Positions 16,131 through 38,231 of a stretch of 64,000 nt of DNA are shown here, piece by piece (positions within the stretch are counted from its first letter, which is position 1; the number at the start of each line of letters is the position of its first letter). The DNA is from Bifidobacterium callitrichos DSM 23973 (GTDB lineage Bacteria > Actinomycetota > Actinomycetes > Actinomycetales > Bifidobacteriaceae). Position numbers and translations under genes: made by a program. The stretch lies in NCBI RefSeq assembly GCF_000741175.1, contig NZ_JGYS01000003.1, forward strand, positions 1 to 64,000. The letters run 5' to 3'. The notes below the pieces were generated by a model that did no database searches, was not told the origin of the DNA, and saw nothing but the letters and a program-made list of their open reading frames with translations.

Positions 16131-16219
16131 GGCGGGGGAGTGGGATATGCGATACACGACACACTCAAGGCCGTTTGGCCAAGCTTACAGTCGTGCATCG
16201 TATATCCCACTCCCCCGCC
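16131..16219 (-). other. Long hairpin with conserved tip, copy A (dgt-dnaG gap)
   Basis: Arms 16131-16160 and 16190-16219 match over 30 positions with two imperfections. On the minus strand the tip reads CTGTAAGCTTGGCCAAACGG then CCTTGAGTGTGTC, nearly the same as copies B, C and D. It follows the dGTPase stop codon by 20 bp and precedes dnaG. A partial copy of the tip (CCGTAAGGCTTGG) lies near 16106 on the plus strand. Confidence 0.85.
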
Positions 16220-16239
16220 TCATTTCCAGCGCAACGCCG

Positions 16240-17550
16240 TCAGCACAGGATCGAGTGGAGGGCGAGGGCGGAGGCGTCGGTGAGGGAGGCGACCTGGTCG
16301 ACGGCGACGCGCAGCCGTTCGTCGTCGTTGGAGGCCGAGTCCCAGTCCTCAAGGAACTGGCTTTCGAGCACGTCGGAGGGGCGGGGCGAGTCGGCCATGA
16401 GCACGTCGATCAGGTCCTCGACGATCCTGCGTTCCTCGATGTGCAGCGGTTCGTGCTCGCGTGGGGCCATCACGAAGTAGACGGCGATGCCCTTCAGGGC
16501 GACGATCTCGTATGCGGTGTCCTCGGGGATGACGACGCTGGCCGAATAGCGGGTCAGTGGCCCCGGACCGTAGGTGTCGCGCGTCACCTCCTCGACACTC
16601 CACGCGAATCTGCCGATGAGATCCGAGGTGATGTTCTTCAGCTGTGCGAGCGAGGAGCGTGAGCCGTTGAAGTGCATGGGGAACATGTCGAGGCGCTGCA
16701 GTCGGCGGAATGCGGCGAGCAGCAGGTCGGGATCCCACTTGTCGCCGTACCAGTCGCGCGTCGCCTCGACGATGCGGTCGAGCATGCGCGGATCGGTGAG
16801 GACGATCGGCTCAAACGCGCCGGTCGCGATCGCATCCTCCACGTCGTGCACGGAGTAGGCGATGTCGTCCGCGAGGTCCATGACCTGGCATTCCATCGGC
16901 TTGGTGGCTTCGGGGGCGTCGATCTTGAGCCACCGGAAGACGTCCATGTCGTCCGGGTAGACGCAGAACTTCGTGGGTTTGACGCCTTTGATTTTCGCGT
17001 ATTCGGCGGCCTGATCGAGCGTCCACGGATATTTGACGGCGGCGTCGAGCGAGGCTCGCGTAAGGTTCACTCCGGCGGATCGGCCGTCGGGGTGCATGAT
17101 CTTGGGTTCGAGCCGTGTGAGCAGTCTGAGGGTCTGCGCATTGCCTTCGAATCCGCCGATGTTGCGGGCGATGTCGGCGAGCGCCTTCTCGCCGTTGTGT
17201 CCGAAGGGCGGGTGTCCGAGGTCGTGGGCGAGGCAGGCGCAGTCGACGACGTCCGGATCGCAGCCGAGCAGTTTGCCGACCTGTCTGCCGATCTGGGCGA
17301 CTTCGAGCGTGTGCGTGAGCCGTGTGCGCGCGAAGTCGTCGGTGCCGGCGACGAGCACCTGGCTTTTGGCGCCGAGTCTTCTCAATGCCGACGAGTGGAT
17401 GAGTCGGGCGCGGTCGCGTTCGAACGCGGTGCGCGATTTCGATTTGGGCGGTTCGATCGCCCAGCGTTCCTCGTCGAAGGCGGTGTACCCCTCGCCGCTC
17501 AGGACCGCTTCCCCATCCAGCGTCGTTTCCATGCCTCCAGCATAGGGCAC
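16240..17550 (-). CDS. dgt: Deoxyguanosinetriphosphate triphosphohydrolase-like protein
   Basis: 436-residue HD-domain phosphohydrolase of the dGTPase family. The metal-binding residues are seen in LTHTLEVAQIGRQ, CLAHDLGHPPFGHNGE and DLADDIAYSVHDVED. It hydrolyses deoxynucleoside triphosphates to nucleoside and triphosphate, limiting dNTP pools. The GTG at 17550 has little ribosome-binding signal; the ATG at 17532 has GGAGG only one base away, so the true start is unsettled. The tandem 61-bp hairpin repeat lies immediately upstream and would be in its 5' leader. Confidence 0.9.
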   Translation of the reverse strand: MPYAGGMETTLDGEAVLSGEGYTAFDEERWAIEPPKSKSRTAFERDRARLIHSSALRRLGAKSQVLVAGTDDFARTRLTHTLEVAQIGRQVGKLLGCDPDVVDCACLAHDLGHPPFGHNGEKALADIARNIGGFEGNAQTLRLLTRLEPKIMHPDGRSAGVNLTRASLDAAVKYPWTLDQAAEYAKIKGVKPTKFCVYPDDMDVFRWLKIDAPEATKPMECQVMDLADDIAYSVHDVEDAIATGAFEPIVLTDPRMLDRIVEATRDWYGDKWDPDLLLAAFRRLQRLDMFPMHFNGSRSSLAQLKNITSDLIGRFAWSVEEVTRDTYGPGPLTRYSASVVIPEDTAYEIVALKGIAVYFVMAPREHEPLHIEERRIVEDLIDVLMADSPRPSDVLESQFLEDWDSASNDDERLRVAVDQVASLTDASALALHSILC

Positions 17551-17552
17551 CT

Positions 17553-17691
17553 CGGGAATTTGTGACGCTCACCAACAGTAAGCGTCACTTATTCCCGAGA
17601 TCCATGGGGACTTCGGGAATTTGTGACGCTCACGGATGGCCAGCGTCACCTTTTCCCGGGATCAACCTAAATCCCGGGAATTTGTGACGCT
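17553..17691. repeat. 61-bp tandem repeat of hairpins upstream of dgt
   Basis: CGGGAATTTGTGACGCT starts at 17553, 17614 and 17675, an exact 61-bp period. In the first two units it is followed, after 11 nt, by AGCGTCAC and then TTATTCCCG or CTTTTCCCG. Each therefore folds into a two-part hairpin (GTGACGCT/AGCGTCAC plus CGGGAA/TTCCCG). The third unit keeps only the left arm. The array begins 3 bp before the possible GTG start of dgt. Confidence 0.9.
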
Positions 17692-17755
17692 GAGAAGCAA
17701 CAGGGAGGAGATTAGGTGGGTTGAGGTGGGGAAATGGGGACGAGGACGAGGATAA

Positions 17756-17799
17756 AGATATTGGGCGCTAATGGTGGTTACCAATAGCGCCCAATATCT
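17756..17799. terminator. Terminator after the amino-acid permease gene
   Basis: Perfect 15-bp arms 17756-17770 (AGATATTGGGCGCTA) and 17785-17799 surround a loop that can itself pair (TGGT/ACCA). It follows the permease stop codon by about 8 bp on the minus strand. Confidence 0.75.
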
Positions 17800-17807
17800 G
17801 TTAATGG

Positions 17808-19271
17808 CTACTTAGCGGCGGCCTTGGCGGCCTTGGCGGACTTATCTACACCGTCCGCACCGTTGAGCTTGGAGCGCTTGCGGCTGTAGGCGAAGTAGAC
17901 CACGAGGCCGAGGCCGAACCAGATGGCGAAGCGCAGCCAGGTCTCCCAGTTGAGGCCGGCGATGAGGATGAAGCAGAAGATGATCGAGATGACCGGGGTG
18001 ACCGGCACGCCCGGGGCCTTGAAGCCGCGGTGCGCGTCGGGCGCGGTCTTGCGCATCCACAGGATGCCGGCGGAGACGATGATGAACGCGCTCAGCGTGC
18101 CGATGTTCACCAGCTCGAACAGCACGTTGATGTTGATGAAGCCTCCGGCGACGGCCGTGAGGATGCCGAAGAACCAGGTGCCCTTGAACGGGGTGCGGTA
18201 CTTCTCGTGCACGTGGCCGAAGAACTCCGGGAACAGTCCGTCGCGGCTCATCGCGTAGCAGATGCGGGACTGGCCGTACAGCTGGACGAGCATCACCGTG
18301 GTCATGCCGACGAGGGCGCCGAGGTTGACGATGAACGCCAGCCAGTTCATGCCAGTGGCGAGGATCACGCCGGCGACCGGCGCGTCGATGAACTTGGCGA
18401 ACTCCTTGTAGGGCACGATGCCGGTCATGATGAGCGTCATGATGATGTAGAGCACCGTCGAGATGCCGAGGGAGTAGAGGATGCCGCGGGGCAGGGTCTT
18501 GTTCGGGTTGACGGTCTCCTCGGCGGAGGAGGAGACGGCGTCGAAGCCGATGAAGCTGAAGAACACGATCGAGGCGGCGGGCACGATGCCGTACGGCTGC
18601 GTGGAGCCGGGCTGGAACGTGTAGATGCCATACGGGGAGAACGGCTTCCAGTTGGCCGGGTTGATGTACCACACGGTGCACACGATGAACAGGACGATGA
18701 TCACGAGCTTGATCATCACCATGATGTCGTTGGTGCGCTTGGTCTGGTTGATGCCGATCGACAGCACCCACGTGATGATGAGGACGATGACGAAGCCGGG
18801 CAGGTTGAAGTAGGTGGTGACGCCCGGCGTGGTGCCGTATGCGGCGGTCAGCTCGACCGGCAGATGCAGTCCGAACCCTTCAAGCAGCTTGTTGAAGTAT
18901 CCCGACCATCCGGCGGACACGGTGGCGGCCTGCAGCGCGTATTCGAGGATCAGATCCCAGCCGATGACGAACGCGATCAGTTCGCCGAACGCCAGATACG
19001 CGTAGGAGTAGGCGGAGCCGGAGACGGGGGCCATCGACGCGAACTCCGCGTAGCACAGGCCGGCGAAGCCGCAGCAGATCGCGGCGAGCAGGAACGACAC
19101 GGACAGGGCCGGGCCGGCGGTCAGAGCGCCTTTGCCGGTCAGCACGAAGATACCGGTGCCGATGATCGCGCCGATGCCGAGCATCGTCAGATCGAACGTG
19201 CGCATCGTACGCTTCAGAGGGGTGGATTCGGCGACAAGCTGATCCACCGTTTTCTTACGGAACAGATTCAT
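17808..19271 (-). CDS. APC-superfamily amino acid permease
   Basis: About 487 residues with some 12 hydrophobic segments. It has the cationic-amino-acid/YfnA-type signature: MLGIGAIIGTGIFVLTGKGA near residue 30, FAGLCYAEFASMAPVSGSAY, and IVFFSFIGFDAVSSSAEETV in the middle. It would import amino acids by proton-coupled transport at the cytoplasmic membrane; the substrate is not resolved. I place the start at the ATG at 19271 (MNLFRKKTVDQL), preceded by AGAGAAGA, rather than 21 codons upstream. The C-terminus is Lys/Ala-rich. It is divergent from alr and may be monocistronic, with its own terminator. Confidence 0.88.
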   Translation of the reverse strand: MNLFRKKTVDQLVAESTPLKRTMRTFDLTMLGIGAIIGTGIFVLTGKGALTAGPALSVSFLLAAICCGFAGLCYAEFASMAPVSGSAYSYAYLAFGELIAFVIGWDLILEYALQAATVSAGWSGYFNKLLEGFGLHLPVELTAAYGTTPGVTTYFNLPGFVIVLIITWVLSIGINQTKRTNDIMVMIKLVIIVLFIVCTVWYINPANWKPFSPYGIYTFQPGSTQPYGIVPAASIVFFSFIGFDAVSSSAEETVNPNKTLPRGILYSLGISTVLYIIMTLIMTGIVPYKEFAKFIDAPVAGVILATGMNWLAFIVNLGALVGMTTVMLVQLYGQSRICYAMSRDGLFPEFFGHVHEKYRTPFKGTWFFGILTAVAGGFININVLFELVNIGTLSAFIIVSAGILWMRKTAPDAHRGFKAPGVPVTPVISIIFCFILIAGLNWETWLRFAIWFGLGLVVYFAYSRKRSKLNGADGVDKSAKAAKAAAK

Positions 19272-19639
19272 GGTTCTTCTCTCATGAACTAGTGGAATGG
19301 GGCTTGGCCGGACGGAATTCCGGGACCCCGACACGCCTCAACGCCGGGAGTCTTGAATACGGTCGTCATTGTTGCCCCCGCATATTACGGGCGGGAAAAC
19401 GGCAAGCGAACCGTGTGAGAAGCGAGTATACGTCGGACCGGAGAGAACCATCGCACGCCGTCTCACCATGCGTTCACGATATGGACCACGCCGATCGGCG
19501 TCTTCCAGTCATCTCCATGCCGATCCATGCCGACCGACACCGCTCAACGCCCGTCCGACACCTCAATCCGGCGGCCCACAAGGCCGCAATGTGGTCTCCC
19601 CCACAGCCACGTCACACTGACGCGCCACAATAGGGCGTC
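19272..19639. promoter_or_regulatory. Divergent intergenic region, amino-acid permease and alr
   Basis: 368 bp without a convincing gene. A small dyad, CCCGC...GCGGG, surrounds the A/T-rich TAATAT near 19375-19395 and could lie in the permease promoter. CACAAT (19626-19631) lies eight bases before the alr ATG, so alr may be read from a leaderless or nearly leaderless transcript. No -35 box is clear for either gene. Confidence 0.35.
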
Positions 19640-21007
19640 ATGACTATCAACGCAGCGAATGCCGCTCCGGCAATCGAATTCAGCAACGAACAGGGCAGGG
19701 CCAACTACGCGGCCGCCCGCCGCCGCTACCCGGCGCAGGCCATCGTCGACATGAGGGCCCTGCGCGACAACATGGCGCATCTGGTGGACGTCGTGGGAGG
19801 CCCGAACTCCGGCACCGCCGTGATGGGCGTCGTCAAGGCCGACGCCTATGGCCACGGTCTGCTGCCCGCCGCCCTCGCCGCGCTGGCCGGCGGCGCCACG
19901 TGGCTCGGCACCGCGCAGTCGCACGAGGCGCTGCTGCTCAGGAAGCTCGGCATCGGCCCCGACCGCTGCCACATTCTCACCTGGGTCTACAACGGCACCG
20001 AAGTGCCGTTCGACGAGCTCATCGCTAATGACATCGACATCTCCGTCGGCTCGCTGCCGGGCATCGACCGGGTCGCCGAGGCCGCCCGCGCGCTCGGCAA
20101 GACGGCGCGCGTGCATGTGAAGGTCGATTCCGGCTTCGGACGCAACGGCTTCACCCCGGCCGGCTTCGACGCCGCGCTCGCCAAGCTCGTTCCGCTCGCC
20201 AAGGAGGGTGTGCTGCACATCGTGGGCCAGTGGAGCCACCTCGCCGTGGCCGATTCGCCGGACGTGCCGGAGTTCGTCGCCTCCACCGACCGTCAGATCG
20301 AGAACTTCAAGGACTTCACCCGCCGCATGGAGGCCGCGGGCATCGCCCCCGAGATCCGACATCTGGCGAACACCGCGGCGACGCTCGACCGTCCGGAGAT
20401 CCACTTCGAGCTGACGCGTCCGGGCATCGGTCTGTACGGCTACGAGCCGGACCCGGCGATGGGCACGCCGCGCGACTGGCATCTGACCCCGGCCATGCGT
20501 CTGCAGGCGCAGCTCGGCACCGTCAAGGACGTGGAGGCCGGTCACGGCATCTCCTACGGCCGCACCTATCTGACTCCGGACGACACGTCCACGGCGATCG
20601 TGCCGATCGGCTACGCGGACGGCATCCACCGCTCCGCCTCCGGATTCGACATGCAGGGTGCCAAGCATGTGGAGAAGCCCGGCGGTCCGGTGCGTGTGAT
20701 GACCGCCGAGGGCCCGAAGCTCTACCGCGTCTCCGGGCGTGTGTGCATGGACCAGTTCATCCTCGATCTGCATGGTTCGGCGGCCGCGCTCGGCGTGCAT
20801 GAGGGCGATACGGTCGAACTGTTCGGACCGGGCCGCGGCGAGGAGTTCGTCGAGCCGACCGCCGACGATTGGGCGCGCGCAGCCGACACGATCAGCTACG
20901 AGATCTTCACCTGCCTGAGGAACCGCATCCCGCGCCTGTATGAGCATGCCGCCGAGGTGCTGCCCGCGGACGATCTCGCCAAGCTCGATCCAACGAGCCT
21001 GCTGTAG
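19640..21007 (+). CDS. alr: Alanine racemase
   Basis: 455-residue fold-type-III PLP enzyme. The cofactor lysine is in MGVVKADAYGHGLLPAAL, and HVKVDSGFGRNGF is the barrel motif. GHGISYGRTYLTPDDTS carries the catalytic tyrosine. IPIGYADGIHRS and RVSGRVCMDQFILDL are the C-terminal signature. It makes D-alanine for peptidoglycan. An N-terminal extension of about 30 residues precedes the usual start of the fold. The acetyltransferase gene is convergent, with a 24-bp stem between them. Confidence 0.95.
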   Translation: MTINAANAAPAIEFSNEQGRANYAAARRRYPAQAIVDMRALRDNMAHLVDVVGGPNSGTAVMGVVKADAYGHGLLPAALAALAGGATWLGTAQSHEALLLRKLGIGPDRCHILTWVYNGTEVPFDELIANDIDISVGSLPGIDRVAEAARALGKTARVHVKVDSGFGRNGFTPAGFDAALAKLVPLAKEGVLHIVGQWSHLAVADSPDVPEFVASTDRQIENFKDFTRRMEAAGIAPEIRHLANTAATLDRPEIHFELTRPGIGLYGYEPDPAMGTPRDWHLTPAMRLQAQLGTVKDVEAGHGISYGRTYLTPDDTSTAIVPIGYADGIHRSASGFDMQGAKHVEKPGGPVRVMTAEGPKLYRVSGRVCMDQFILDLHGSAAALGVHEGDTVELFGPGRGEEFVEPTADDWARAADTISYEIFTCLRNRIPRLYEHAAEVLPADDLAKLDPTSLL

Positions 21008-21020
21008 GCGCGTACGCGGC

Positions 21021-21079
21021 CGAAACGCACTAGCCCCCTGCCGACCGATACGGTTTCGGCAGGGGGCTAGTGCGTTTCG
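21021..21079. terminator. 24-bp perfect hairpin between alr and the acetyltransferase gene
   Basis: Arms 21021-21044 and 21056-21079 are perfect complements with an 11-nt loop. The position between convergent stop codons fits a bidirectional terminator. Confidence 0.8.
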
Positions 21080-21093
21080 CCGGTCCGCTCACC

Positions 21094-21621
21094 TCACCAC
21101 TCGTGGCGCTGGTAGGCGATGCGGGTGGTGTCCGTCGTTCGGTCGATCAGCTGGATCAGCCCGCATCGGGCGAATCCGTTGGTCTCAAGCACATGCTGCA
21201 TGGCCCGGTTGTTGGGATGCGTGTCGGCGCGCACATTGCCGTAGTGCTTGAGCGCCCAGGCGATGCAGTCGCGCGCCGCGTGCTTGACCAGACCGGAGGC
21301 CGCGATGCGGTGGATGGTGACATAGGCGTCGTCGTCCAGCCAGGCTCCGTCGATGTGCTTGTAGGTGGGGTCCTCCCCCGGGCACAACGCGAACTGGGCA
21401 AGGATGCGCTCGTGTCCGTTCTGCGTGTCGACGAGCAGCATCGTGCGCTGGTTGGCGATGTCGTCCCTGATGACCTCCTCGTGCGGGAACGTGTTGCCCC
21501 ATTGCGTGGGATTGCCGTTGCGCGCCATCAGCTCGCGGGCGTGCGCGTAGATCTTGAGCATCTGCGGAAGATCGTGCATGGTCGCGTGGCGGAAGCGCCG
21601 GGAGGAGGTATTGGATACCAC
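21094..21621 (-). CDS. GNAT-family N-acetyltransferase
   Basis: 175 residues with a GNAT profile: FRHATMHDLPQMLKIYAHAR at the N-terminus, WLDDDAYVTIHRIAASGLVK in the strand that carries the acetyl-CoA site, and NVRADTHPNNRAMQHVLETN followed by GFARCGLI at the C-terminal end. It would transfer an acetyl group from acetyl-CoA to an unknown amine. No neighbour hints at the substrate. Confidence 0.8.
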   Translation of the reverse strand: MVSNTSSRRFRHATMHDLPQMLKIYAHARELMARNGNPTQWGNTFPHEEVIRDDIANQRTMLLVDTQNGHERILAQFALCPGEDPTYKHIDGAWLDDDAYVTIHRIAASGLVKHAARDCIAWALKHYGNVRADTHPNNRAMQHVLETNGFARCGLIQLIDRTTDTTRIAYQRHEW

Positions 21622-21734
21622 GATTCACCTCACGGTCGATTGGTCGGATTGGGTCGGTTGGAATGGTGACTGACGGGTTACGCTACCATGTCCGCCGCAC
21701 AAACCGGTGGCGTCCGTTTCGGTGCGTGGTCGTT

Positions 21735-22628: not shown

Positions 22629-22723
22629 TTCGGTTGCCTTCCTGTCCTGATTGCTGAGTCGTAGCGTTGGTGTTGCGATGTGATTGACGATGTACTGACG
22701 ACGCGTTGACGATGCCGACGGTC

Positions 22724-23302
22724 TCACAGGTGCAGCGCGCCCGCGACGGCGGCCGCCTCCTGCTCGGGGGTGCCCAGTCCGATGTGCGCGGCGACATGGA
22801 CCTCGTCGTCGCCCGGCTCTTCAAGGATGTCGAACTGGCTTTGGAGCATCTCCGGCTTCATGAAGTGGTTCTCGCGGGTGGACAGGCGTTCCATCACCTC
22901 GTCGAACGTGCCCTTCATGTAGACGAACACGACGCCCTTGCGGCGCAGTCGGTCGCGGTAGGCGCGCTTCAACGCGGAGCAGGTGACGACGGCGGGCTCG
23001 CCGGCGGCGATGCGCTCGTCGATCCACACGGCGAGGGTGTCGAGCCACGGCCAGCGGTCCTCGTCGGTGAGCGGGTGGCCGGCGGCCATCTTGTCGATGT
23101 TGGCCTGCGGGTGGAAGTCGTCGGCCTCGGCGTACTTCAGGCCGTAGTGGTCGACGAGATGCTCGGCGACGGTGGTCTTGCCGCAGCCGCACACGCCCAT
23201 GAGGACGATGATCGGCTTGGCGTGGCTGAAGTACTTGGCGGGGATGGTGTTCTCGACGATGATGCGCTCGGCGAGGGTGGGGGTGGCGGTTGCGGTGGTC
23301 AT
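22724..23302 (-). CDS. gntK: Gluconokinase
   Basis: 192 residues. The P-loop is VLMGVCGCGKTTVAEHLVDH, followed by ADDFHPQANIDKMAAGHPLT and DRWPWLDTLAVWI, typical of GntK. VTCSALKRAYRDRLR and ENHFMKPEMLQSQFDILEEP complete the family pattern. It phosphorylates gluconate to 6-phosphogluconate, which Gnd (next gene) oxidises. An N-terminal extension of about 28 residues precedes the usual start. Confidence 0.95.
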   Translation of the reverse strand: MTTATATPTLAERIIVENTIPAKYFSHAKPIIVLMGVCGCGKTTVAEHLVDHYGLKYAEADDFHPQANIDKMAAGHPLTDEDRWPWLDTLAVWIDERIAAGEPAVVTCSALKRAYRDRLRRKGVVFVYMKGTFDEVMERLSTRENHFMKPEMLQSQFDILEEPGDDEVHVAAHIGLGTPEQEAAAVAGALHL

Positions 23303-24866: not shown

Positions 24867-25012
24867 AATCCATCTCTTCTTTGAGTCGTTGTATTGGATG
24901 ACGAAACTCTGTCAACCAATCTGTTTTGTATGTTGATATTCAATATAACGCACCGTTTTGGATTACGCAATACGATTCAAAGACGGCGTGTCGAATATGT
25001 ATGCCATAACAC

Positions 25013-25035
25013 ATCGCATGTGCGATACTTGTCCT
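25013..25035 (+). promoter_or_regulatory. Promoter and operator of the gluconate regulator
   Basis: ATCGCA-tg-TGCGAT (25013-25026) is an inverted repeat overlapping GATACT (25024-25029), a good -10 box seven bases before the ATG at 25036. Transcription would start at or next to the start codon, giving a leaderless mRNA. No ribosome-binding site is visible, which fits. The palindrome over the -10 box suggests autoregulation. Confidence 0.45.
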
Positions 25036-25788
25036 ATGAATACGGAGAAGACGGAAGATACGGCGCGTACCGGTCAATACGCCGGGCAAAGTGACGAACG
25101 CCCGTTGCACGACCGGCTGCTGGACTGGTGGGGCATGGCGATCGTCGACGGCGACATCGCCCCGGGAGACCGGCTCCCCGACCCCGATCTCGGCGGCGAA
25201 AGCCCCTCGCGCACGGTCACGCGAGAGGCGACTCGCGTGCTGGAATCGATGGGACTGGTGAGCGTCAGGCGCAAGGCGGGCGCGACGGTCAACCCGATCC
25301 GGCAATGGAACATGTTCGACCCGCAGGTAATCCGCTGGCGCTTGGGCGGGAGGCACCGTCTGGACGCGCTGCACGAACTGTCGCAGCTTCGCTCGGCGGT
25401 CGAACCGCTGGCCGCGCGCCTCGCCGCCACGCATGCCACAAACGAGCAGTGGGCGGCCCTGACCGAGGCCGCGATCGGCATGGTCTCGCACGCGGACCGC
25501 GCCGACGAGCAGGAGTACCTCGACGCCGACAGCCTGTTCCACCGCACGCTCGTGGAGGCGAGCGGAAATCTGATGATCGCCGATCTGGGCGACGTCATCG
25601 TCGCCACGCTCGAAGGGCGCACGCATCACGAGCTGATGCCGAAGACCGCGAATCAGGAGGCGCTGGACCTGCACAGCGAGGTCGCGGCGCTGGTGCGCCG
25701 GGGCGACGGCGCGGGCGCCGAGGCGGCGATGCGGCGCATCGTCGACGAATCGGACGACGCCATCACGCGCATCGCCGAACGGGCGTAA
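25036..25788 (+). CDS. GntR/FadR-family regulator, probable gluconate repressor
   Basis: About 250 residues. The N-terminal winged HTH (about 15-85) includes IVDGDIAPGDRLPDPDLGGE and SRTVTREATRVLESMGLVSV. The C-terminal FCD-type ligand domain includes LHELSQLRSAVEPLAARLAA, DSLFHRTLVEASGNLMIADL and LHSEVAALVRRGDGAGAEAA. It is divergent from gntP with a 169-bp shared upstream region, which points to control of the gluconate genes. The ATG at 25036 was chosen because a -10 box lies just upstream; a longer frame from 24958 would cover that promoter. Confidence 0.88.
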   Translation: MNTEKTEDTARTGQYAGQSDERPLHDRLLDWWGMAIVDGDIAPGDRLPDPDLGGESPSRTVTREATRVLESMGLVSVRRKAGATVNPIRQWNMFDPQVIRWRLGGRHRLDALHELSQLRSAVEPLAARLAATHATNEQWAALTEAAIGMVSHADRADEQEYLDADSLFHRTLVEASGNLMIADLGDVIVATLEGRTHHELMPKTANQEALDLHSEVAALVRRGDGAGAEAAMRRIVDESDDAITRIAERA

Positions 25789-25803: not shown

Positions 25804-25884
25804 GGGCCGGATGAATGGGGGTGCTCGACCGTAGGCTTGGCCGAACGGCCTTGAGTGTGTCGAGCACACCCATTCATCCGGCCC
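25804..25884 (+). other. Long hairpin with conserved tip, copy B (between the gluconate regulator and luxS)
   Basis: Arms 25804-25828 and 25860-25884 pair over 25 bp with one mismatch. The tip on the plus strand reads CCGTAGGCTTGGCCGAACGG followed by CCTTGAGTGTG. It lies between convergent genes. The arms share no sequence with those of copies A, C and D. Confidence 0.88.
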
Positions 25885-25899: not shown

Positions 25900-26403
25900 T
25901 CAGACGACCTTGCGGACGAAGGGGTCGGAGCTGATGCCCTTGGCGAGGATGTCCTTGCACCACTCCTTCGCGGTGAACAGGCTGTGGTCGCGGTAGTTGC
26001 CGCAGCTTTCGATCGTCGTGGCGGGGACGTCGTCCCACGTGGCCTTGTAGGCGATGAACTCGAGCGATTCCTTCAGCGCCTTGGCGACCTCCTCGGTGGG
26101 GTGCTCGCCCCAGGTGAGCAGGTGGAAGCCGGTGCGGCAGCCGAACGGCGAGCAGTCGATGTAGCCGTCGATACGCTCGCGCAGCAGCACGGCGATCGTG
26201 TGCTCGATCGTGTGCAGGCCCGCGGTCGGGATCGCGTTCTCGTTCGGCTGCACGAGACGCAGGTCGTAGTTGGAGATCACATCGCCATGCGGCCCCTTCT
26301 CCGTGTCGATGTAGCGCACGTACGGCGCCTTGACCTTCGTGTGATCCAGCTGGAAGCTCTCGACGACGGGCTTCGTCGGCTTTTCGTTCGTTTCCTCAAC
26401 CAT
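25900..26403 (-). CDS. luxS: S-ribosylhomocysteine lyase (autoinducer-2 synthesis)
   Basis: 167 residues. The iron-binding HxxEH is in [17 protein letters not shown] and the catalytic cysteine in [18 protein letters not shown]-terminal [11 protein letters not shown] supplies further active-site residues. It cleaves S-ribosylhomocysteine to homocysteine and the AI-2 precursor DPD, completing methyl-cycle detoxification. The ATG at 26403 has GGAGGA seven bases upstream; the open frame continues far beyond but there overlaps the divergent gene and has no homology. Confidence 0.96.
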
Positions 26404-26529
26404 GTGTCGTCCTCCATAGGTGTTCATTGGAATGACGGATACCATAATAGGACGTGGTTCTTCATGCGGGAGGACAACGCGCATGCGCAAGAACGACGCG
26501 GGAAGAACACAGGGAAGGAAAGGGATCAT

Positions 26530-27723
26530 ATGCGTTTCTGCACGAACTGCGGTCACAGTCTTGAACCCGGAACGAGATTCTGCACGAACTGCGGCACGCC
26601 GATTGCTCAGATGACTCCCGCCGGGTCGTCCGCAGCAGCTCAGCCGGAGCCCACGCCGATTCAACCGACGATTCAACCGGTACCGACACCGGCACCGACG
26701 AGGGGAACGTCGCAGGATCGTCCGGTGCCCGATCCCCCGCAGGCTTCCCCCGCACCCGCGTCCGGTCCTTCGCCTTCGCCGGTGCCGGCTCCCACGCCGA
26801 GCGCCACGACACGGTCCAGGACGAACCGGATATGGATCATCGTCGTGGCCGCGATCGCCGCCGTGGCGATCGTCGCGGCGCTCGTGTTCGCGTTCGTCAT
26901 CAAGCCGGACTTCCTGACCGGCTCGACCCCGACCAATCAGACCACCGAACAATCGAACACGGCCGATTCGGACAAGTCCGAAGCCGATTCCGCAACCAAA
27001 TCCGACACCGACGCGAAGGCCAAGACGACGAAGCCCAACTCGAAGTCGCTGTCGTCGATCACCGACAAGTACTCCTCCACCGACGTGTCGGTCTCGGCGA
27101 TGTTCCTCGGCGACGGCACCTCGTCGGCCGACACGTCCTATTCGGAAAAGGACGTGGCCAACACGGCCGCCGCACGCACGAAGTTCGTCTCCGCAGGCCT
27201 GTACCTGCCCGTCTATCTCGCCGCACGGTCGAACGGTGGCGATTCCCTCACCGAGGCCCAGACGATGATGTCCACGATGGACAATGCGGCCGCCAATCAG
27301 GCGATCGCCGACTTCGGCGGCTTCGAGGCGGTCAACCTGTGGCTCAAGCAGCACGGATACGCCGACACCACGCTGGACCGCAACTTCGGCGACGTGCAGG
27401 CCAGCAACGCCGGCTACGAGAACACCAGCTCCACGTTCGACGCCGTACGCATGCTCGCCGCGGTGGATGCGGCCGGGGTGTCCGACCTCATGAACGTCGA
27501 CGTCGCAGCCGAAGGCGTCGCGATTCCATCCGACATGACCATCCACGCACATCGCGGACAGGGCATCAAGAACACGTGGAACTACTTCGCGGTCGTCACC
27601 ACACCGCACGGCAAGGCGGCGGTCGCGCTCGCCACGCAGAATCAGGGCAAGGGCACGGCGGCGCAGATCATGAGCGACGTCCTCGCCGACATCGACCAGC
27701 AGCTCGCCAAGGCGGACGAGTGA
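26530..27723 (+). CDS. Zinc-ribbon membrane protein with degenerate beta-lactamase-like domain
   Basis: 397 residues. An N-terminal zinc ribbon ([20 protein letters not shown], Cys4, 7, 18 and 21) is followed by a Pro-rich linker and one membrane segment (about 101-125, [20 protein letters not shown]). A Ser/Thr/Asp/Lys-rich stretch leads to an extracellular domain (about 185-395). That domain aligns by eye with the enzyme encoded next. SLIK there corresponds to SAGL here (no catalytic lysine), SSNDAAN to MDNAAAN, and the KTG motif is not evident. I infer a non-catalytic, possibly ligand-binding relative. GGAAGGAAAGGG precedes the ATG at 26530. The stop overlaps the next start (TGATG), so the two are probably co-translated. 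Confidence 0.75.
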
Positions 27724-28931
27724 TGGGCGGACGCCGCTGCGCGCGCAGTGCATCCTCTCGTAGACGTCGTGGACGGTCACACGCCGCGCGGAGTCGCACG
27801 CCGATCGCAGCCGTCATCGTGGCAGCGGTGCTGCTGGTCGCCGTACTCGCCGGGATCATCGCGTATCCGCGCGTGACGGGCGTGGCAGGCGGCGCAGCGG
27901 ATGACCCCGGCCGAAATCAGACCACGTCATCGACGACGAAACACACCACGGACGGCGACATGACAGGTACGGGTGACGGGACCGACAAAGCCGAAACGGC
28001 CGCACCGGACCCGGATGCGGCGCGCATCGATGCGGTGAGACAGACGATCGAATCGACCGTCGCACAGTATCCGGGCGACTGGTCCGTGTACGCGCTCGAC
28101 CTCGGCAGCGGGCGGGACACGGCGATCAACGACAAACCGCTGGTCGCGGCGTCGCTGATCAAGCTGTACATCATGCTCACGGTGTTCGATCGTCTCGAGC
28201 ACGGGACGATCGCCGACAACGCGACGATCGACGCGAACCTGCAGCAGATGATCACGGTCAGTTCGAACGATGCGGCCAATCGGCTGCTCGCCGTCATCGG
28301 CGGCAAGGGCGGGACCACGGCCGCGATCGCGACCGTCACCGACACCGCCGTACGGTACGGCTTCTCCGGCACGAAGGAGCTGCGCGCACTGACAGGCGCC
28401 GCATCGGGCAACGCCGTCGAGAACTGGACGTCGGCGCGCGACTGCGGGACGTTCCTCGCCAAGGTTTATCGGGGCGAACTGGTGTCGGCGAACGCGAGCA
28501 AACGGATGGTCGACCTGCTGCTTGGACAGACGCGACGCACGAAGATCCCGGCGGGCGTGCCCGCCGGCGTGCAGGTGGCGAACAAGACCGGCGAACTGGC
28601 TGCAGTGCAGAACGACGTCGCGATCGTCTACGGTGCCCGCCCATACGTGATCGCCGTGATGACGAACGACGTCGACGAATCCGCCGCCACGAACATCACC
28701 ACCCTCTCCGCGAACGTGTACCAAGCGTTCGAGGGGCGAGACAGCAGAGGCTGGCGGACGGACGCGACGTCAGCCGACCAACCGTCCGAGATCGGTGATG
28801 CCGATGACCTGACCGTGGCTGGTCGCAAAGGACTCGTCTCCCCCGTAGACCACGAAACGGTTGTCCACGGGCAGACCGAAATCCGGTGCGAGATCCTCGA
28901 GAATCTCGAACGATTTCGGATTGAACGATGA
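27723..28931 (+). CDS. Membrane-anchored class-A beta-lactamase-like serine hydrolase
   Basis: 402 residues. A basic N-terminus ([13 protein letters not shown]) and one membrane segment (about 26-48) suggest N-in topology with the enzyme outside. A Thr/Asp/Gly-rich linker follows. The hydrolase domain (about 85-338) has all three class-A marks: SLIK (about 144-147), SND (about 180) and KTG (about 288, [15 protein letters not shown]). It could act on beta-lactams or on cell-wall peptides. From about residue 338 on, some 64 residues read antisense to the DUF4143 remnant and look unlike the fold, so the original C-terminus was probably near 28735. Confidence 0.78.
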
Positions 28932-31395: not shown

Positions 31396-31441
31396 GCTTC
31401 CAGTGTAGAAGCAGGTGGAAGCAGGGCGCTCCGCCGGCGTC

Positions 31442-32626: not shown

Positions 32627-32775
32627 GGTGATTGGTTCCTTTCGGTGTGGTGCGCTTGGGCTTATGAGTGGATTTTGGGTACGTTGTCGAGGGTATGGCA
32701 GTGGCCGGCGCGCATGGCGCCGGTCGGTATCGGTGTTGGTGATGACCGGTTATCCGGTCGGTTATGGGCGGAAGG

Positions 32776-33798
32776 TCACAGGTACTGTTCGGCGAGCGAC
32801 GGGCGGGTGGTGCGTTCGACGATGTCGCCGTAGCCGTTGGCGCGCATCCAGTCGTCGTTGAAGATCTTCTCCAGATAGCTGCGGCCGGAGTCGGGGGCGA
32901 GGACGACGACGAGCTGGTCGGCGCCGAGGTCGTGTTCCTTCGCGTACTTGATCGCGCTGACGACGGCCATGCCGGAGGAGCCGCCGACGAGCAGCGCCTC
33001 CTCGGCGGCGAGCCTGCGGGTCATCTCGAACGCCTCGGCGTCGTTCGCCTTGACGATCTCGTCGGGGATGGAGCGGTCGTAGGCCTTCGGGTAGAAGTCC
33101 TCGCCCACGCCCTCGATGTCGTACTGGTGGACGTCGGCGAGGCTGGGTGCGGAGTAGATCGAGCCCTCCGGGTCGGATCCGACGACGACGACGCGGCCGT
33201 CGGAGGCCTCCTTCAGATATTTGCCGGTGCCGGAGATCGTGCCGCCGGTGCCGATGCCGGCGACGAAGTGCGTGACCTTGCCGTCGGTCGCCTCCCAGAT
33301 CTCGGGGCCGGTGGTCGCGTAGTGGCTGGCGGGACCGTTCGGGTTGTCGTACTGGTTGGGGCGGAATCCGCCGGGGATCGACTTGGCGAGTCGTTCGGCG
33401 ACCTGGTAGTAGGAGCGCGGGTCGTCGGGGCCGGCGTCGGTGGGGGTGACGACGACTTCGGCGCCGTACGCGCGCAGCACGGCGCGCTTGGATTCGGAGA
33501 CCTTGTCCGGCAGGGTGAAGATCGTGCGGTAGCCGCGCTGCTGGGCCACCATCGCAAGTCCCACTCCGGTGTTGCCGGACGTGGGTTCGACGATGACGCC
33601 GCCGGGCTTGAGTTCGCCGGAGCGTTCGGCCGCGTCGATGATGCGCGCGGCGATGCGGTCCTTGGACGAGCCGCCCGGGTTCATGTATTCGATCTTGACC
33701 GCGATGGTGGCGTTGACGCCCTCCTCGGCGGGGATGTGGTTGAGCTTGACGAGCGGGGTGTTGCCGATGAGCTCCGCGGTGCTGTTGGCGATGGTCAT
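32776..33798 (-). CDS. Cystathionine beta-synthase / cysteine synthase-like PLP enzyme
   Basis: 340 residues, fold-type-II PLP enzyme without CBS regulatory domains. It starts STAELIGNTPLVKLNHI. The PLP lysine is in MNPGGSSKDRIAARII, followed by EPTSGNTGVGLAMVAQQRGY and the phosphate-binding VAGIGTGGTISGTGKYL. GSDPEGSIYS is more like cystathionine beta-synthases than plain O-acetylserine sulfhydrylases. With the next gene (metB-like) it can move sulfur between homocysteine and cysteine. The ATG at 33798 was chosen because the fold starts there; the frame is open another 108 codons upstream with no recognisable protein. Confidence 0.88.
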   Translation of the reverse strand: MTIANSTAELIGNTPLVKLNHIPAEEGVNATIAVKIEYMNPGGSSKDRIAARIIDAAERSGELKPGGVIVEPTSGNTGVGLAMVAQQRGYRTIFTLPDKVSESKRAVLRAYGAEVVVTPTDAGPDDPRSYYQVAERLAKSIPGGFRPNQYDNPNGPASHYATTGPEIWEATDGKVTHFVAGIGTGGTISGTGKYLKEASDGRVVVVGSDPEGSIYSAPSLADVHQYDIEGVGEDFYPKAYDRSIPDEIVKANDAEAFEMTRRLAAEEALLVGGSSGMAVVSAIKYAKEHDLGADQLVVVLAPDSGRSYLEKIFNDDWMRANGYGDIVERTTRPSLAEQYL

Positions 33799-34343
33799 GT
33801 TCGTCTCTTTCCTTGTGGTTCGGGTGGGTTGTCGGTTGGTTGGTGATGGATTGGATGGAAGCCATGCGACGATGCCGTGTCGCGGACCGACGTTCCCCGA
33901 CGAAAGGAAAGTGACGAGATTGATTGCGTTCGATGCGGTGCGATTCCGTATCCGGTGATCGCATCCGGTGTTTTCCGATGATGCCGGTGTTCCGGGCCGT
34001 TCGCCGGATGCGTGATCCGTGGATGCCCGTATGCCCTGTCGCTCATTGGTCTGCCCCGAAGACCCGGTTATCGATACCCCCAACGTACCAATAGCCTTGT
34101 GCGACTGAAAACCGCTGCGCACGAATCGAGGTGAAATGCGGCTACGCCGCGCCCGAATGCCCTATCTCAAGTTATGCGTCACTGACCGTTCGCCCGGGGG
34201 CGTCGGTTAGCGACAACAACACAAGATAATCTGCATGTCTCACACGATACCACCCTCATCGGCGAGGGCGTGTCGCGCGGGGCCCGCACAGTCCGCATTG
34301 TGGACAGGGATGATACCTGTTGCCATGTCTCTCCCCGGCCGGC
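33799..34343 (-). promoter_or_regulatory. Long untranslated region upstream of the transsulfuration pair
   Basis: About 545 bp with no recognised gene. The word CTATCTCAAGTTAT lies near 34162-34175 and TATCGATAAC near 34068-34077; the latter could be part of a -10 region, but no promoter is clear. An 83-codon frame (34046-33795) ends with TGA overlapping the ATG of the next gene; it is His/Pro/Arg-rich, lacks cysteine codons and may be chance. I recognise no known riboswitch here. Confidence 0.3.
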
Positions 34344-35219
34344 CTACAGCGAGGCGGCTTCGATGAGGCGACGGGTGTAGTCGGATTCAGGGGCGTCAAG
34401 GACCCGCTCAGTGGGTCCGGTCTCGATCGCACGCCCCTCGTTGAGGACGAGGATGCGGTCGGCGATGTGCCGTACGACGCCGAGATCATGCGAGACGATG
34501 ATCAGCGCGGGGCGCTCGCCGTCCACTCCCTCGCCGGCGAGGATCGACTGGAGGGTCTCGAGGATCTGCACGCGCGCGGCCACGTCGATGGCGCTCATCG
34601 GCTCGTCGGTGAGGATCACCTTCGGCTCGTTGACGATGGCGCGGGCGATGGCGACGCGCTGCGCCTGCCCGCCGGACAGGTCGCACGGGTAGCGGTTCAG
34701 GAACATGCGCGGGTCAAGGCCGACGCGGGCCAGCGCCTGCACGGTCTTGCCGGCGACCTCGTCGAACGCGTAGCCGAGCGCCTTGCGCCGCAGCCACAGC
34801 GGTTCGGACACCGACCGTTCGACGGTCCAACGCGGATCGAGCGACCCGTACGGGTCCTGGAAGACGATCGACGATTCGGCACGCAACGCACGCATGCCCG
34901 CCGAACCGCGTTCGACCGCGGACCCACGGTAGAGGATCTCGCCGGAGTCGGCCGTGTCGAGCCCCAGCATGACGCGCGTGAGCGTGGTCTTGCCCGATCC
35001 GGATGCGCCGATCACGGCGAGGCACTCCCCCGCATGCACCTCGGCGGACACGTCGAACAGCACCTGCCGGCGCGTTCTGGGCGCGAACAGCCCACGGTGC
35101 ATGGCACGGTCGACGAACGACGTGTCGATGTGTCGTGCGGCGAGCAGCGGCTGCGACGGTTCAGTCGACCGCGGCGTTGCCGTTGCGTCTGCGGCGTTCA
35201 TAACGTTCATGGCGTTCAT
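34344..35219 (-). CDS. Peptide-type ABC transporter ATP-binding protein (OppF/DppF-like)
   Basis: 291 residues. Walker A CLAVIGASGSGKTTLTRVML, Q-loop VFQDPYGSLDPRWTV, signature LSGGQAQRVAIARAIV, Walker B VILTDEPMSAIDVAAR and IIVSHDLGVVRHIADRILVL are all present. QDP(Y/F)GSLDPR is typical of OppF/DppF. It shares a 4-bp ATGA overlap with the oppD-like gene and is the last gene of the minus-strand transporter run. It energises the importer together with OppD. Confidence 0.9.
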   Translation of the reverse strand: MNAMNVMNAADATATPRSTEPSQPLLAARHIDTSFVDRAMHRGLFAPRTRRQVLFDVSAEVHAGECLAVIGASGSGKTTLTRVMLGLDTADSGEILYRGSAVERGSAGMRALRAESSIVFQDPYGSLDPRWTVERSVSEPLWLRRKALGYAFDEVAGKTVQALARVGLDPRMFLNRYPCDLSGGQAQRVAIARAIVNEPKVILTDEPMSAIDVAARVQILETLQSILAGEGVDGERPALIIVSHDLGVVRHIADRILVLNEGRAIETGPTERVLDAPESDYTRRLIEAASL

Positions 35220-36106
35220 GACTGTGCGACTCCCCCTTCATCGGCACGCGACGTGTCGCCGGCATGCAGCGTCAGCCTGCGCGCGGCCGTGACGAGCTCG
35301 CGAGCGGGCGCCGTTTCGGGCGCGGCGAGCAGATCGGCCGTATTCCCCGATTCGACGATACGCCCCTCGTCCAACACGTAGCAGCGTGTGGTGGCGCGCG
35401 AGAGCACGGCGAAGTCGTGGGTGATGAACAGCATCGAGGCGCCCGCGTCGTCGACGAGCGAGACGAGCAGGTCGACGATCTGGCGTTGCGTGATCGAGTC
35501 AAGCGCCGTGGTGGGCTCGTCCGCGATGATGAAGCGCGGCGAGGTGATCAGCGCCGTCGCGATGCCGACGCGCTGGCGCTGTCCGCCCGACAGCTCGTGC
35601 GGCCGCTTGTTCAGCACGTCGTCGGACAATCCGACCTTGCCGAGCATCGCCCTGACACGCTCGGCGCGTTCCGAGGCCGTGAGGTCGTAGTGCAGCCGCA
35701 GCGGCAGCGCGATCTGCCGCGCGACGGTCATCACCGGGTTCAGCGCCCGAGCCGGATTCTGGAACACCGTCCCCACATACCGCCCGCGCAGGTCGGCCAA
35801 CGTCCGCTCGTCCGCATAGGAGGCCGGAGCCGAGTCGCCGCCATTACCCTCGCCACTCGCACTCCCAAGGATCGCCGCATCCCCCATCGAAATCCCGCCG
35901 CACAGCGAAGCGCCCTGCGGCAACAACCCCAGCAAGGCCTTGGCGATCATCGATTTGCCCGACCCGGACGCCCCGATCAGCCCGACGCGCTCCCCATCGC
36001 CGATGGTCAGATCGACCCCATGCACGATCTCGACGCCACCAAGGTCGACTTTCAACCCACGGACAGAAACACTCATCGAACACCTCCCCCGAGGCACAAG
36101 CAGCAA
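35216..36106 (-). CDS. Peptide-type ABC transporter ATP-binding protein (OppD/DppD-like)
   Basis: 296 residues. Walker A RVGLIGASGSGKSMIAKAL, Q-loop VFQNPARALNPVMTV, signature LSGGQRQRVGIATALI, Walker B FIIADEPTTALDSITQRQIV and FITHDFAVLSRATTRCYVL. The Q-loop with NPVMTV is typical of OppD/DppD. It pairs with the overlapping OppF-like ATPase. The long hairpin C stands between it and the upstream permease gene. Confidence 0.9.
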   Translation of the reverse strand: MLLVPRGRCSMSVSVRGLKVDLGGVEIVHGVDLTIGDGERVGLIGASGSGKSMIAKALLGLLPQGASLCGGISMGDAAILGSASGEGNGGDSAPASYADERTLADLRGRYVGTVFQNPARALNPVMTVARQIALPLRLHYDLTASERAERVRAMLGKVGLSDDVLNKRPHELSGGQRQRVGIATALITSPRFIIADEPTTALDSITQRQIVDLLVSLVDDAGASMLFITHDFAVLSRATTRCYVLDEGRIVESGNTADLLAAPETAPARELVTAARRLTLHAGDTSRADEGGVAQS

Positions 36107-36129
36107 ACGCGACGAACACCCCCAACGGA

Positions 36130-36215
36130 GGGGTGAGGCGGGTACGCCGTACTGGACCGTAGGCTTGGCCGAGCGGCCTTGAGCGCGTCCAGTACGGCGT
36201 TAGCCGGCTCACCCC
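36130..36215 (+). other. Long hairpin with conserved tip, copy C (oppC-oppD gap)
   Basis: Arms 36130-36155 and 36188-36215 pair along most of their length, with a few mismatches near the middle. The plus-strand tip reads CCGTAGGCTTGGCCGAGCGG then CCTTGAGCGCG. It lies inside a minus-strand operon with the tip in the opposite orientation. Arm sequences are unrelated to the other copies. Confidence 0.85.
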
Positions 36216-36255
36216 GGACGCAACGCAAACGAATCGCACAAATGACCATCGAAAA

Positions 36256-37137
36256 CTAAGCCTCCCGCAGCAGAGGATTGGCGACCGGATCGCCCGCATC
36301 GCGCAGGGCGTCGCCGAACAGGTTCAACGCGATGACGACGAGCGTGACCACCAATCCCGGCCACAGCACCGTCAGCGGAAACACGTTGATGAGCTTGACC
36401 GATGTGGAGAGCGAATGCCCCCAGCTGGGCACGCCCGCGCCGACGCCGACGCCGAGATACGTGAGCCCCGCTTCGGCCAGTACCGAGGTTCCGGCGGACA
36501 TCGACAGCTGCACCGCCAGCACCGGCGTGATGTTCGGCACGATGTGCTGCACGAGCACGCGCAGGCCGCCCGCCCCGTTCGCCCGCGCCGATTCGACGTA
36601 CTGCGACCGCGCGGCGAGCAGGGCGGCGGGCCGGGCCACGCGCGCGAGGTTCAACCCGTAGGCGATCGAGCATGCGCCGACGACGACCGCCGCGGACGCG
36701 CCGAACGGCACGGCGAGCAGCAGGGCGATGAGCACGGTCGGAATGGAGATGAGCGCGTCGACGACGGCGACCGATACGGAGGCGAGCGCCGTGGATCGCG
36801 CGACCATGAGGCCGACGAGCAGCAGTCCCAGCGCGGCGGAGCCGATCACGGTGAGGCCGGCGATCACGAGGTTGGTACGCGAGCCGGCCATGAGCCAGCT
36901 CAGCACGTCGGCGCCGGTGCCGTCGGTGCCAAGCCAATGGTCGGCGGACGGCGCGGCCCAGACGTGGTAGCCGTCGGTGGCGAGCAGCGGGAGCGGCGTC
37001 CAGAACAACGAGACGAGCGCGACGAGCGCCCAGAGGGCGAGCACGACGAGCGCGTATCGTCCGGTGCCGCTCGACCACATGGTGTCAAGGATGACTCGAG
37101 CGCGGCGCGCCGGAGTCGGTTTGGTCACGGCCATCAC
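36256..37137 (-). CDS. Peptide-type ABC transporter permease (OppC/DppC-like)
   Basis: 293 residues, about six membrane segments, with the OppC-type N-terminus (WAAPSADHWLGTDGTGADVL) and the EAA-like loop LLAARSQYVESARANGAGGL followed by RVLVQHIVPNITPVLAVQLS. It forms one half of the translocation channel. Its start overlaps the oppB-like stop by 4 bp (37134-37137), so the two permeases are translationally coupled. Confidence 0.9.
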   Translation of the reverse strand: MMAVTKPTPARRARVILDTMWSSGTGRYALVVLALWALVALVSLFWTPLPLLATDGYHVWAAPSADHWLGTDGTGADVLSWLMAGSRTNLVIAGLTVIGSAALGLLLVGLMVARSTALASVSVAVVDALISIPTVLIALLLAVPFGASAAVVVGACSIAYGLNLARVARPAALLAARSQYVESARANGAGGLRVLVQHIVPNITPVLAVQLSMSAGTSVLAEAGLTYLGVGVGAGVPSWGHSLSTSVKLINVFPLTVLWPGLVVTLVVIALNLFGDALRDAGDPVANPLLREA

Positions 37138-38102
37138 TCCTCCTCTCCCGCGGCAAGTCGCGGATCGAGCGCCCGATGCGTCAGGTCGACGATCAGTCCC
37201 AGAATCAGGAAGAACGCGGCGAGCAGGAACAGCTCGCTTTCAACGGCGACAAGATCGCGGTTGCCGACGTCGCCGACGAGCAGCGCGCCGAGCCCGGGCA
37301 GGGCGAACAGGTTCTCGATGACCATGACGCCGGTGATCATCGACGCGAACGTCAATCCCACGACCGAGACGAGCTGCGGGGTCGCGAGGCGCAGTCCCAC
37401 CTGGAGCATCGCCTGTGTGCGGGTCATGCCGCAGGCCATCGCCATGTCGACCGGACCGCCATCGGAGGCGATGTCGTCGAGCGCGGAACGCGTGTAGCGC
37501 ATGATGCCGGCCGCCGCGACGAAGCCAGTGGCGAGCGCAGGTAGGATCAGCGAGGCGAACGCGCGGACGGGATCGCCCGACCAGCCATCGGCGGGGAATC
37601 CCTGCGAGGGGAACAGACCGATCAATCCGACACCGCGGCCGAACAGCAGGAGCAGCAGCAGGCCGCTCCACAGGGCGGGCACCGCGCCGCCCGCTATGGC
37701 GAGCACGCGCAGGAACCCGCGCAGCCGGGGCGAACGGGCGATGGACGCGGCGCAGCCGAGCGGCAGCCCGACGGCGAGCGCGACCACGAGGCTCATGACG
37801 ATCAGCGGGAACGTGATGGCCGCGCGGCGGCCGACCTGCGCTGCGACGGATCGCCCGGTCAGCGCGGACATGCCGAGGTCGCCGTGCAGCAGTCCGCCCG
37901 CCCAGTCGAGGTACTGGACGGTGTAGGGCCGGTCGAGCCCGAATTCGGCGCGCAGTTCGGCCACACGCGAGGCTGAGGCGTTGGTGCCCGCCATGACGAC
38001 GGCCACATCGCCCGGCAGGATGCGCAGCGCCGCGAACACGAGCATCGACACCCCGACCAGCGCCGCCGCAAACAGCAGCAGCCGCTTCACCAAGAACCGC
38101 AT
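37134..38102 (-). CDS. Peptide-type ABC transporter permease (OppB/DppB-like)
   Basis: 322 residues. It has the OppB-type first segment MRFLVKRLLLFAAALVGVSM and LRILPGDVAVVMAG, and the periplasmic stretch GLDRPYTVQYLDWAGGLLHG. The EAA loop region reads YTRSALDDIASDGGPVDMAM followed by ACGMTRTQAM. It heterodimerises with the OppC-like permease. It follows the substrate-binding-protein gene, separated by long hairpin D. Confidence 0.9.
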   Translation of the reverse strand: MRFLVKRLLLFAAALVGVSMLVFAALRILPGDVAVVMAGTNASASRVAELRAEFGLDRPYTVQYLDWAGGLLHGDLGMSALTGRSVAAQVGRRAAITFPLIVMSLVVALAVGLPLGCAASIARSPRLRGFLRVLAIAGGAVPALWSGLLLLLLFGRGVGLIGLFPSQGFPADGWSGDPVRAFASLILPALATGFVAAAGIMRYTRSALDDIASDGGPVDMAMACGMTRTQAMLQVGLRLATPQLVSVVGLTFASMITGVMVIENLFALPGLGALLVGDVGNRDLVAVESELFLLAAFFLILGLIVDLTHRALDPRLAAGEEE

Positions 38103-38143
38103 AAGGATTCCTTTCGCTAACGCAACATGCTCGTCGGAAGTGA

Positions 38144-38231
38144 GCGGGAGATGACAATTCCCCGTTCAGGACCGTAGGACTTGGCCGAGCGGCCCGGAGC
38201 GTGTCCGGAATGGGGAATCGTCATCTCCCGC
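38144..38231 (+). other. Long hairpin with conserved tip, copy D (oppA-oppB gap)
   Basis: Arms 38144-38171 and 38204-38231 pair over 28 positions with about three mismatches. The plus-strand tip reads CCGTAGGACTTGGCCGAGCG then GCCCGGAGCGTG, the most diverged tip of the four. It separates the binding-protein gene from the permeases and could limit downstream expression. Confidence 0.85.

Follow-up and report, generated by a model that had tools for sequence, protein, structure and literature searches.

In a stretch of 64,000 nucleotides (nt) from Bifidobacterium callitrichos DSM 23973 (contig NZ_JGYS01000003.1, positions 1 to 64,000, referred to here as the window), four long hairpins carry nearly the same tip on arms that vary in sequence. 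They belong to a hairpin family that extends beyond the genus Bifidobacterium. A reading made from the letters of the window alone (the sequence-only reading) had noticed the four hairpins and their common tip; this observation was confirmed, and the family proved to be far larger. In our best explanation, to which we give about even chances, the hairpin, whose whole length is about 87 to 90 nt, is a small mobile palindromic DNA element that is recognized via its folded tip. A mobile element was favored because the copies are spread widely, are present or absent at matching sites, occur in opposite orientations, lie in frame within genes, and include near-identical copies.

Four hairpins with a common tip

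The tip was captured by a 22-nt pattern, CTTGGCCRANCGGCCNNGAGYG, which occurred exactly four times in the window, each time at one of the four hairpins. No occurrence was found in 100 shuffles of the window, with up to one mismatch allowed. The claim of a shared, near-identical tip was therefore borne out. The four hairpins lie where they had been placed, and the other long hairpins (near positions 10426, 21021, and 43494), which had been described as lacking the tip, gave no match. When the tip strands of copies A to D were folded as RNA, the z-scores were -11.5, -9.3, -7.8, and -8.3, respectively, and in all four hairpins the complement was less stable than the tip strand, the difference being 2.5 to 7.2 kcal/mol. 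The tips are indeed common to all four, but their orientation differs, with the tip of copy A on the minus strand and those of copies B, C, and D on the plus strand.

Copy A (positions 16131 to 16219) is flanked by dnaG (13969 to 16086, minus strand) and a gene for an HD-domain phosphohydrolase (16243 to 17550, minus strand), and its 29-nt tip at 16161 to 16189 is of type 1 (GTAAG CTTGGCC AAAC GGCC TTGAGTG). The motif ACCGTAAGGCTTGG adjoins this copy at 16106 to 16119 on the plus strand and resembles the 5′ half of a second tip. Copy B (25804 to 25884), also with a 29-nt type 1 tip (25830 to 25858), lies between the convergent genes of a GntR/FCD regulator (24958 to 25788, plus strand) and a LuxS-domain protein (25900 to 27780, minus strand). 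Copies C and D are both located within one ATP-binding cassette (ABC) transporter operon, antisense to it. Copy C (36130 to 36215) separates the ATPase gene (35216 to 36106, minus strand) from a permease gene (36256 to 37137, minus strand), and its 29-nt tip (36158 to 36186) has a GARC loop with G (GAGC). Copy D (38144 to 38231) stands between a permease gene (37134 to 38102, minus strand) and the solute-binding-protein gene (38273 to 39991, minus strand); its 30-nt tip (38173 to 38202) is of type 2 with an extra A and CGGAGCG.

Fold of the tip

Tips are 27 to 30 nt long, and the commonest loop, found in 92 of 141 copies, has 29 nt. The fold consists of a 4-bp stem (GGCC/GGCC or GGGC/GCCC), an RARC loop, and a CUU/GAG helix with a 2-nt bulge. 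Covariation was examined in an alignment of 74 copies, 73 of them distinct, in which the tip stems are invariant since the search pattern had fixed them. At positions left free by the pattern, a loop purine covaried with a 3′ pyrimidine (GC in 43 copies, AU in 29, and another combination in 1). In a second set, found with a covariance model, the stem itself was exchanged (CG in 49, GC in 10, and broken in none), in an alignment that was fitted to the model and thus leans to it.

Mismatches within the arms were then counted on the tip strand in the 105 of 137 copies that passed a pairing filter; 6 of the 91 bifidobacterial copies and 26 of the 46 others did not pass. G.T outnumbered A.C (83 versus 30; binomial P = 6 × 10⁻⁷), and A.G outnumbered C.T (79 versus 20; binomial P = 2 × 10⁻⁹). 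Because the mismatch types are asymmetric between the strands, the tip strand is the one that is kept foldable; sequence cannot separate RNA from single-stranded DNA in this respect.

A second repeat, the GGACAGTCC..TGGACTGTCC hairpin, stands alone at positions 8027 to 8047 of the window. In three genomes it was also seen within the family's tip loop, as an insert in either orientation (85-nt inserts in copies L028 and L042, and the Bifidobacterium rousetti site of L017, in L208).

Pairing and profile of the arms

The stem was exactly 29 bp long in 64 of 103 bifidobacterial copies (103 of 111 having passed the pairing filter). Across 141 copies, the pairing score was 20.9 for the two arms of the same copy versus 4.5 for arms from different copies; the 12 copies scoring under 10 include the chance hits L091, L094, and L136 as well as real members with tandem G.A pairs. 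In the 74-copy alignment, the arms were paired in 79% of cells, and each of the 13 columns had changes on both of its sides. Orthologous copies in B. rousetti were compared for 13 of 17 pairs, L005, L007, L024, and L026 being dropped for low identity or poor pairing. This comparison gave 8 paired arm changes, with 0.9 expected under independent change; 6 of the 8 keep the pair, and 20 changes were single. Arms differed at 4.8% of sites and tips at 1.6%. At one of the dropped sites (L024/L179), flanks and tip were kept, with widely different arms. The own-arm score, the paired changes, and the covariation in the tip all support the proposal that the arms are under compensatory change in a structured motif.

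The arms had also been described as mutually unlike, and this did not hold. The four 5′ arms in the window share on average 15.7 of 29 bases versus 8.5 after shuffling, a value that none of 2,000 shuffles reached, and the outer 26 arm bases of 28 copies had 44% identity versus 29% when shuffled. The arm sequence is free within a weak common profile. Past the arms, the 3′ flank of the 103 bifidobacterial copies has a GGCCACC-like consensus, and the T-run that would directly follow the stem in an intrinsic terminator was absent from these copies.

In two carrier lineages, the arms contain extra conserved internal-loop motifs, namely, CTCCGAACGAGGG with CCCGAGCTGAGGAG in L056, L152, L246, and L259 and, in the second lineage, GGGTGGCCGA with TCGGACAGGACCC in L262, L263, and L268. 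A TATAAT-like box was seen shortly past the 3′ arm in six Saccharibacteria copies (L036, L092, L110, L123, L127, and L130).

Copy number and spread

The genome of the window has 28 exact copies of the tip pattern and 36 covariance-model matches at an E value of up to 0.1. A search of Bifidobacterium genomes for further copies, proposed in the sequence-only reading, did find them: the exact pattern was present in 55 of 112 genomes, at 0 to 51 matches each, for a total of 383 matches versus 3 for a reversed control. Within the family Bifidobacteriaceae, 61 of 189 genomes, from 4 of 16 genera, had it. Scanning named genomes gave at least 110 stretches. Among the matches listed, 60 were Bifidobacterium or Bifidobacteriaceae by title, 31 were Candidatus Saccharibacteria, and 19 were others, including Peregrinibacteria, Parcubacteria, Kaiserbacteria, Nomurabacteria, Paceibacterota, bacterial metagenome-assembled genomes, and one Gudongella. 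Matches in Paenibacillus, Deltaproteobacteria, and Pseudomonas have unpaired flanks and look like chance. The same tip was found on different arms in Saccharibacteria, in other Patescibacteria, and in the Gudongella genome. With one mismatch allowed, 21 non-bifidobacterial carriers had the tip at 1 to 27 places each.

In whole-phylum surveys, the model was applied to about 20 candidates from each genome under strict filters, so these counts are lower bounds. Matches were obtained in at least 6 of 286 genomes of the phylum of the Saccharibacteria genome G201 (two of them being seeds), in at least 1 of 296 genomes of the phylum of the window (the window's own genome), and in at least 1 of 299 genomes of the Gudongella phylum (Gudongella itself). 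Tip hairpins are rare at the phylum scale. No viral contig had the tip, and the matches in 12 phage and 9 plasmid records were partial and chance-like, each with less than 80% of the query covered. At the curated threshold, Rfam matched tRNAs alone in the window and 18 loci and offered no family for the hairpin; a relaxed Rfam search with copy C returned microRNA precursors, far under the threshold. No description of such an element was found in searches of an open-access library of papers. A family defined by its tip alone escapes ordinary repeat finders, and similar families may be common but unseen.

Presence, inversion, and copying

Copies A, B, and D, and likewise L010, are absent as whole hairpins from the syntenic stretches of B. 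rousetti (labeled G068 and G210, one genome as inferred from identical coordinates). Conversely, two B. rousetti copies are absent from the window at syntenic sites, and copy C is common to both, with changed arms in B. rousetti. At six present/absent sites, the relative without the tip was also without the arms. At these sites, therefore, the idea that a mobile tip enters the loops of pre-existing palindromes fails in bifidobacteria. At copy B, CGTAAG occurs on both sides here and once in B. rousetti, which fits either an insertion that came with a duplication or a deletion between short repeats. At two sites with kept flanks (L019/L192 and L056/L246), the tip had opposite orientations, which is what recombination or strand switching between the arms would be expected to give.

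Related copies were found at different places of the same genome. In G196, from which 20 copies were examined, two copies at different loci, L257 and L258, are nearly the same throughout the hairpin and in about 45 nt of 5′ flank; L241, L244, and L247 are related to them. In G201, L271, L272, and L274 share the tip and the inner arms (27 of 28 bases). The palindrome extended beyond 29 nt in a locus-specific manner in 14 of 45 Saccharibacteria copies versus 10% with swapped flanks; the bifidobacterial set showed no excess (2 of 52 versus 5.5%). The locus-specific extension and, in G201, the shared inner and differing outer arms partly revive the mobile-tip idea for Saccharibacteria.

Placement and orientation in bifidobacteria

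The placement of 133 bifidobacterial copies relative to their neighboring genes was polar. The 3′ base of the hairpin was at a median distance of 32 nt from the stop codon of an antisense neighbor, with 71% within 45 nt (n = 75), and the 5′ base was at a median of 129 nt from the stop codon of a sense neighbor, with 20% within 45 nt (n = 69). With the tip strand taken as plus, both neighbors were antisense in 39 cases and sense in 33, 27 gaps were convergent, 7 were divergent, and the rest were incomplete. A minus-then-plus arrangement was seen in 13 of the 14 distinct close pairs of hairpins, and the gaps between paired hairpins had no common motif by eye. No such orientation rule was found in the 46 non-bifidobacterial copies.

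Copies inside protein genes

Genes were called with our own codon model. By these calls, 15 of the 46 non-bifidobacterial copies (from Patescibacteria and Gudongella) lie in frame within genes, 8 in sense and 7 in antisense orientation. Thirteen of the 15 were checked against protein families or structures, L086 and L143 being the remaining two. QueA has 35 residues at the hairpin versus 4 in a solved relative, and TsaD has 40 versus about 6 in a relative with a solved structure. Ten further matches were to gyrase A, topoisomerase I (twice), MnmA, alanyl-tRNA synthetase, UvrC, Tgt, an FtsJ-like methyltransferase, a class I tRNA synthetase, and a diacylglycerol-kinase-like protein; in gyrase A, the hairpin insert lies upstream of the domain. 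The hairpin explains extra loops, otherwise puzzling, in essential Saccharibacteria proteins, which matters for annotation and structure work. Bifidobacterial copies that were called in genes (L034, L117, and L120, and L002 and L003 in a cruder first calling) are distrusted.

The QueA loop was parsable in 103 of the best 120 of 7,999 homologs. Twenty of these had a tip-encoded peptide (12 type 1 sense, 4 type 2 sense, and 4 antisense), 17 had a short form of 28 to 29 residues, and 66 had other sequence. Homologs P0007, P0009, P0013, P0018, P0022, and others carry different recurrent inserts, without the tip, in the same loop, which may thus be a place for additional families of palindromes or repeats.

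Other repeats were seen in the window. A TTCCTATAGGA-centered repeat is present in three copies, mutually inverted or direct, at positions 12124 to 12259, and two adjoining hairpins at 17551 to 17692 have CCGGGAATTTGTGACGCT-like arms in common.

Discussion

If the hairpin is a mobile DNA element, a trans-acting factor would read its tip in single-stranded form. In some lineages the entire hairpin may be copied, and in others (at least one) the tip with the inner arms. Once copied, the arms would change in pairs, through either compensation or hairpin-templated correction, and the tip would be flipped when the element inverts through its arms. A wider proposal, which we consider possible but doubtful, is that such hairpins form a new class of mobile elements. 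In this class, a single-strand fold of about 29 nt would be the heritable identity, a horizontally shared factor would recognize the tip, and the arms would act as a paired ruler of free sequence; in Actinomycetota, Patescibacteria, and one or more Bacillota, the class would be spreading both to the ends of genes and, in frame, into essential genes.

Several points weigh against a mobile element. The bifidobacterial polarity is not derivable from a mobile-DNA model, and the absent sites could be losses. Among the six sites read, a direct repeat, of 6 nt, was found at copy B only, with no clear target-site duplication at the others. The outer arms of L271, L272, and L274 differ, sharing 6, 7, and 13 of 24 bases, which is not predicted by simple whole-hairpin copying. 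The genome of the window has no recent duplicate; its most similar arms have about 46 of 58 bases in common, in a comparison whose register is off by one so that the arms contain one tip base. Finally, no mobilizing protein was found for the family. Y1/RAYT transposases (PF01797) were not enriched (8 of 24 distinct carriers versus 3 of 10 non-carriers), with none in the bifidobacterial carriers G000, G072, and B. rousetti and one or more in 8 of the 21 other carriers. Reverse transcriptases, present in 13 of 24 distinct carriers versus 2 of 10 non-carriers (P = 0.13), were absent from the window's genome. They look like several kinds by inspection of motifs, without a family search, and of 20 reverse transcriptase regions, 19 were without the tip and 1 had a match (L335, which is the known copy L258). 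The largest cluster of neighboring genes spans 34 loci and includes the ABC ATPase gene beside copy C.

The main rival is a function as RNA, and the polarity in bifidobacteria, where hairpins are placed a short way past antisense stop codons, argues for it best. The hairpin would then be a cis-acting structured RNA, with a protein-bound tip on a long hairpin, that terminates or protects transcripts where genes end, antisense transcripts running into the 3′ ends of genes among them. The different distances to antisense and sense stop codons, the rarity of divergent gaps, the minus-then-plus pairs, and the strict strand-specific fold with its covariation all favor this explanation. Still, we regard it as rather unlikely, given the eight sense copies within translated Patescibacteria genes and the 39 bifidobacterial copies with both neighbors antisense, where no transcript of an annotated type reads the tip strand. 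Moreover, no T-run is found past the arms, presence is not conserved between close species, and the orientation rule is missing outside bifidobacteria.

The G201 copies, with their common inner and differing outer arms, would fit a mobile tip that, with short inner arms, enters a palindrome or builds one by inverted copying of the target, the outer arms belonging to the locus. The locus-specific extension in Saccharibacteria and the L024/L179 site agree with such a tip. It is disfavored by the six bifidobacterial sites that lack arms where the tip is missing, by the bifidobacterial palindromes, which show no excess of extension, and by the profile that the arms share, and we judge it quite improbable. 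The arms in the window's genome are old relative to the tips, and 17 comparable ortholog pairs are common with B. rousetti; both would suit an old, vertically inherited binding site (for example, of a nucleoid or supercoiling protein) that is undergoing loss, with no current mobility. However, in-frame insertion in conserved genes, near-identical copies at different loci, and the patchy spread over phyla make such a site very improbable. Whatever its nature, the hairpin family lends itself to direct study of how hairpin repeats spread and of how a palindrome remains one.

Small palindromic repeats tend to be confined to one group and are usually recognized by their conserved arms. REP and BIME sequences resemble the hairpins in being intergenic palindromes near gene ends, single or in close pairs of opposite orientation, and in having a GTAG-like tetranucleotide 5′ of a small hairpin. 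Unlike in REP/RAYT systems, the arms here are free and copies also occur in genes. The family does not belong to REP/RAYT, as the Y1 transposase is absent from the tested bifidobacterial carriers and the palindrome is not conserved (arms at 44%, tips nearly constant). REP and BIME are described in PMC2817692. TIGR arrays, as described, have a different architecture. ERIC, RU, RUP, and CIR are described in PMC2229807 as short non-coding stem-loop repeats, some of them fused in frame to genes. The hairpins resemble these repeats, which are like miniature inverted-repeat transposable elements, in being short, in their stem-loop potential, and in having some copies in frame in genes. They appear to differ from them in that no regular target duplication was seen at six sites, copy B alone having a 6-nt direct repeat, and no terminal repeats of a parent transposon were seen, no search for a parent insertion sequence having been made.

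In nematomorph mitochondria, palindromes lie inside functional coding genes, and their arms encode conserved parts of proteins (PMC6649704). Palindromes are likewise kept in functional coding genes here, but the hairpin is an added segment with a common tip, and the abstract of PMC6649704 names no common tip. The closest likeness in coding genes is to the Rickettsia palindromic elements, long stem-loops of about 100 to 150 bp that lie in frame in many conserved genes, according to PMC2229807. Rickettsia was not among the matches listed in the named-genome scan, and the family, judged by description rather than by sequence comparison, is not placed among these elements. A palindrome in frame in protein genes is common to both, with 15 of the 46 non-bifidobacterial copies in this position here. 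Unlike in the Rickettsia elements, the tip alone is conserved in the hairpin family, the arms are free, and the hosts belong to several phyla.

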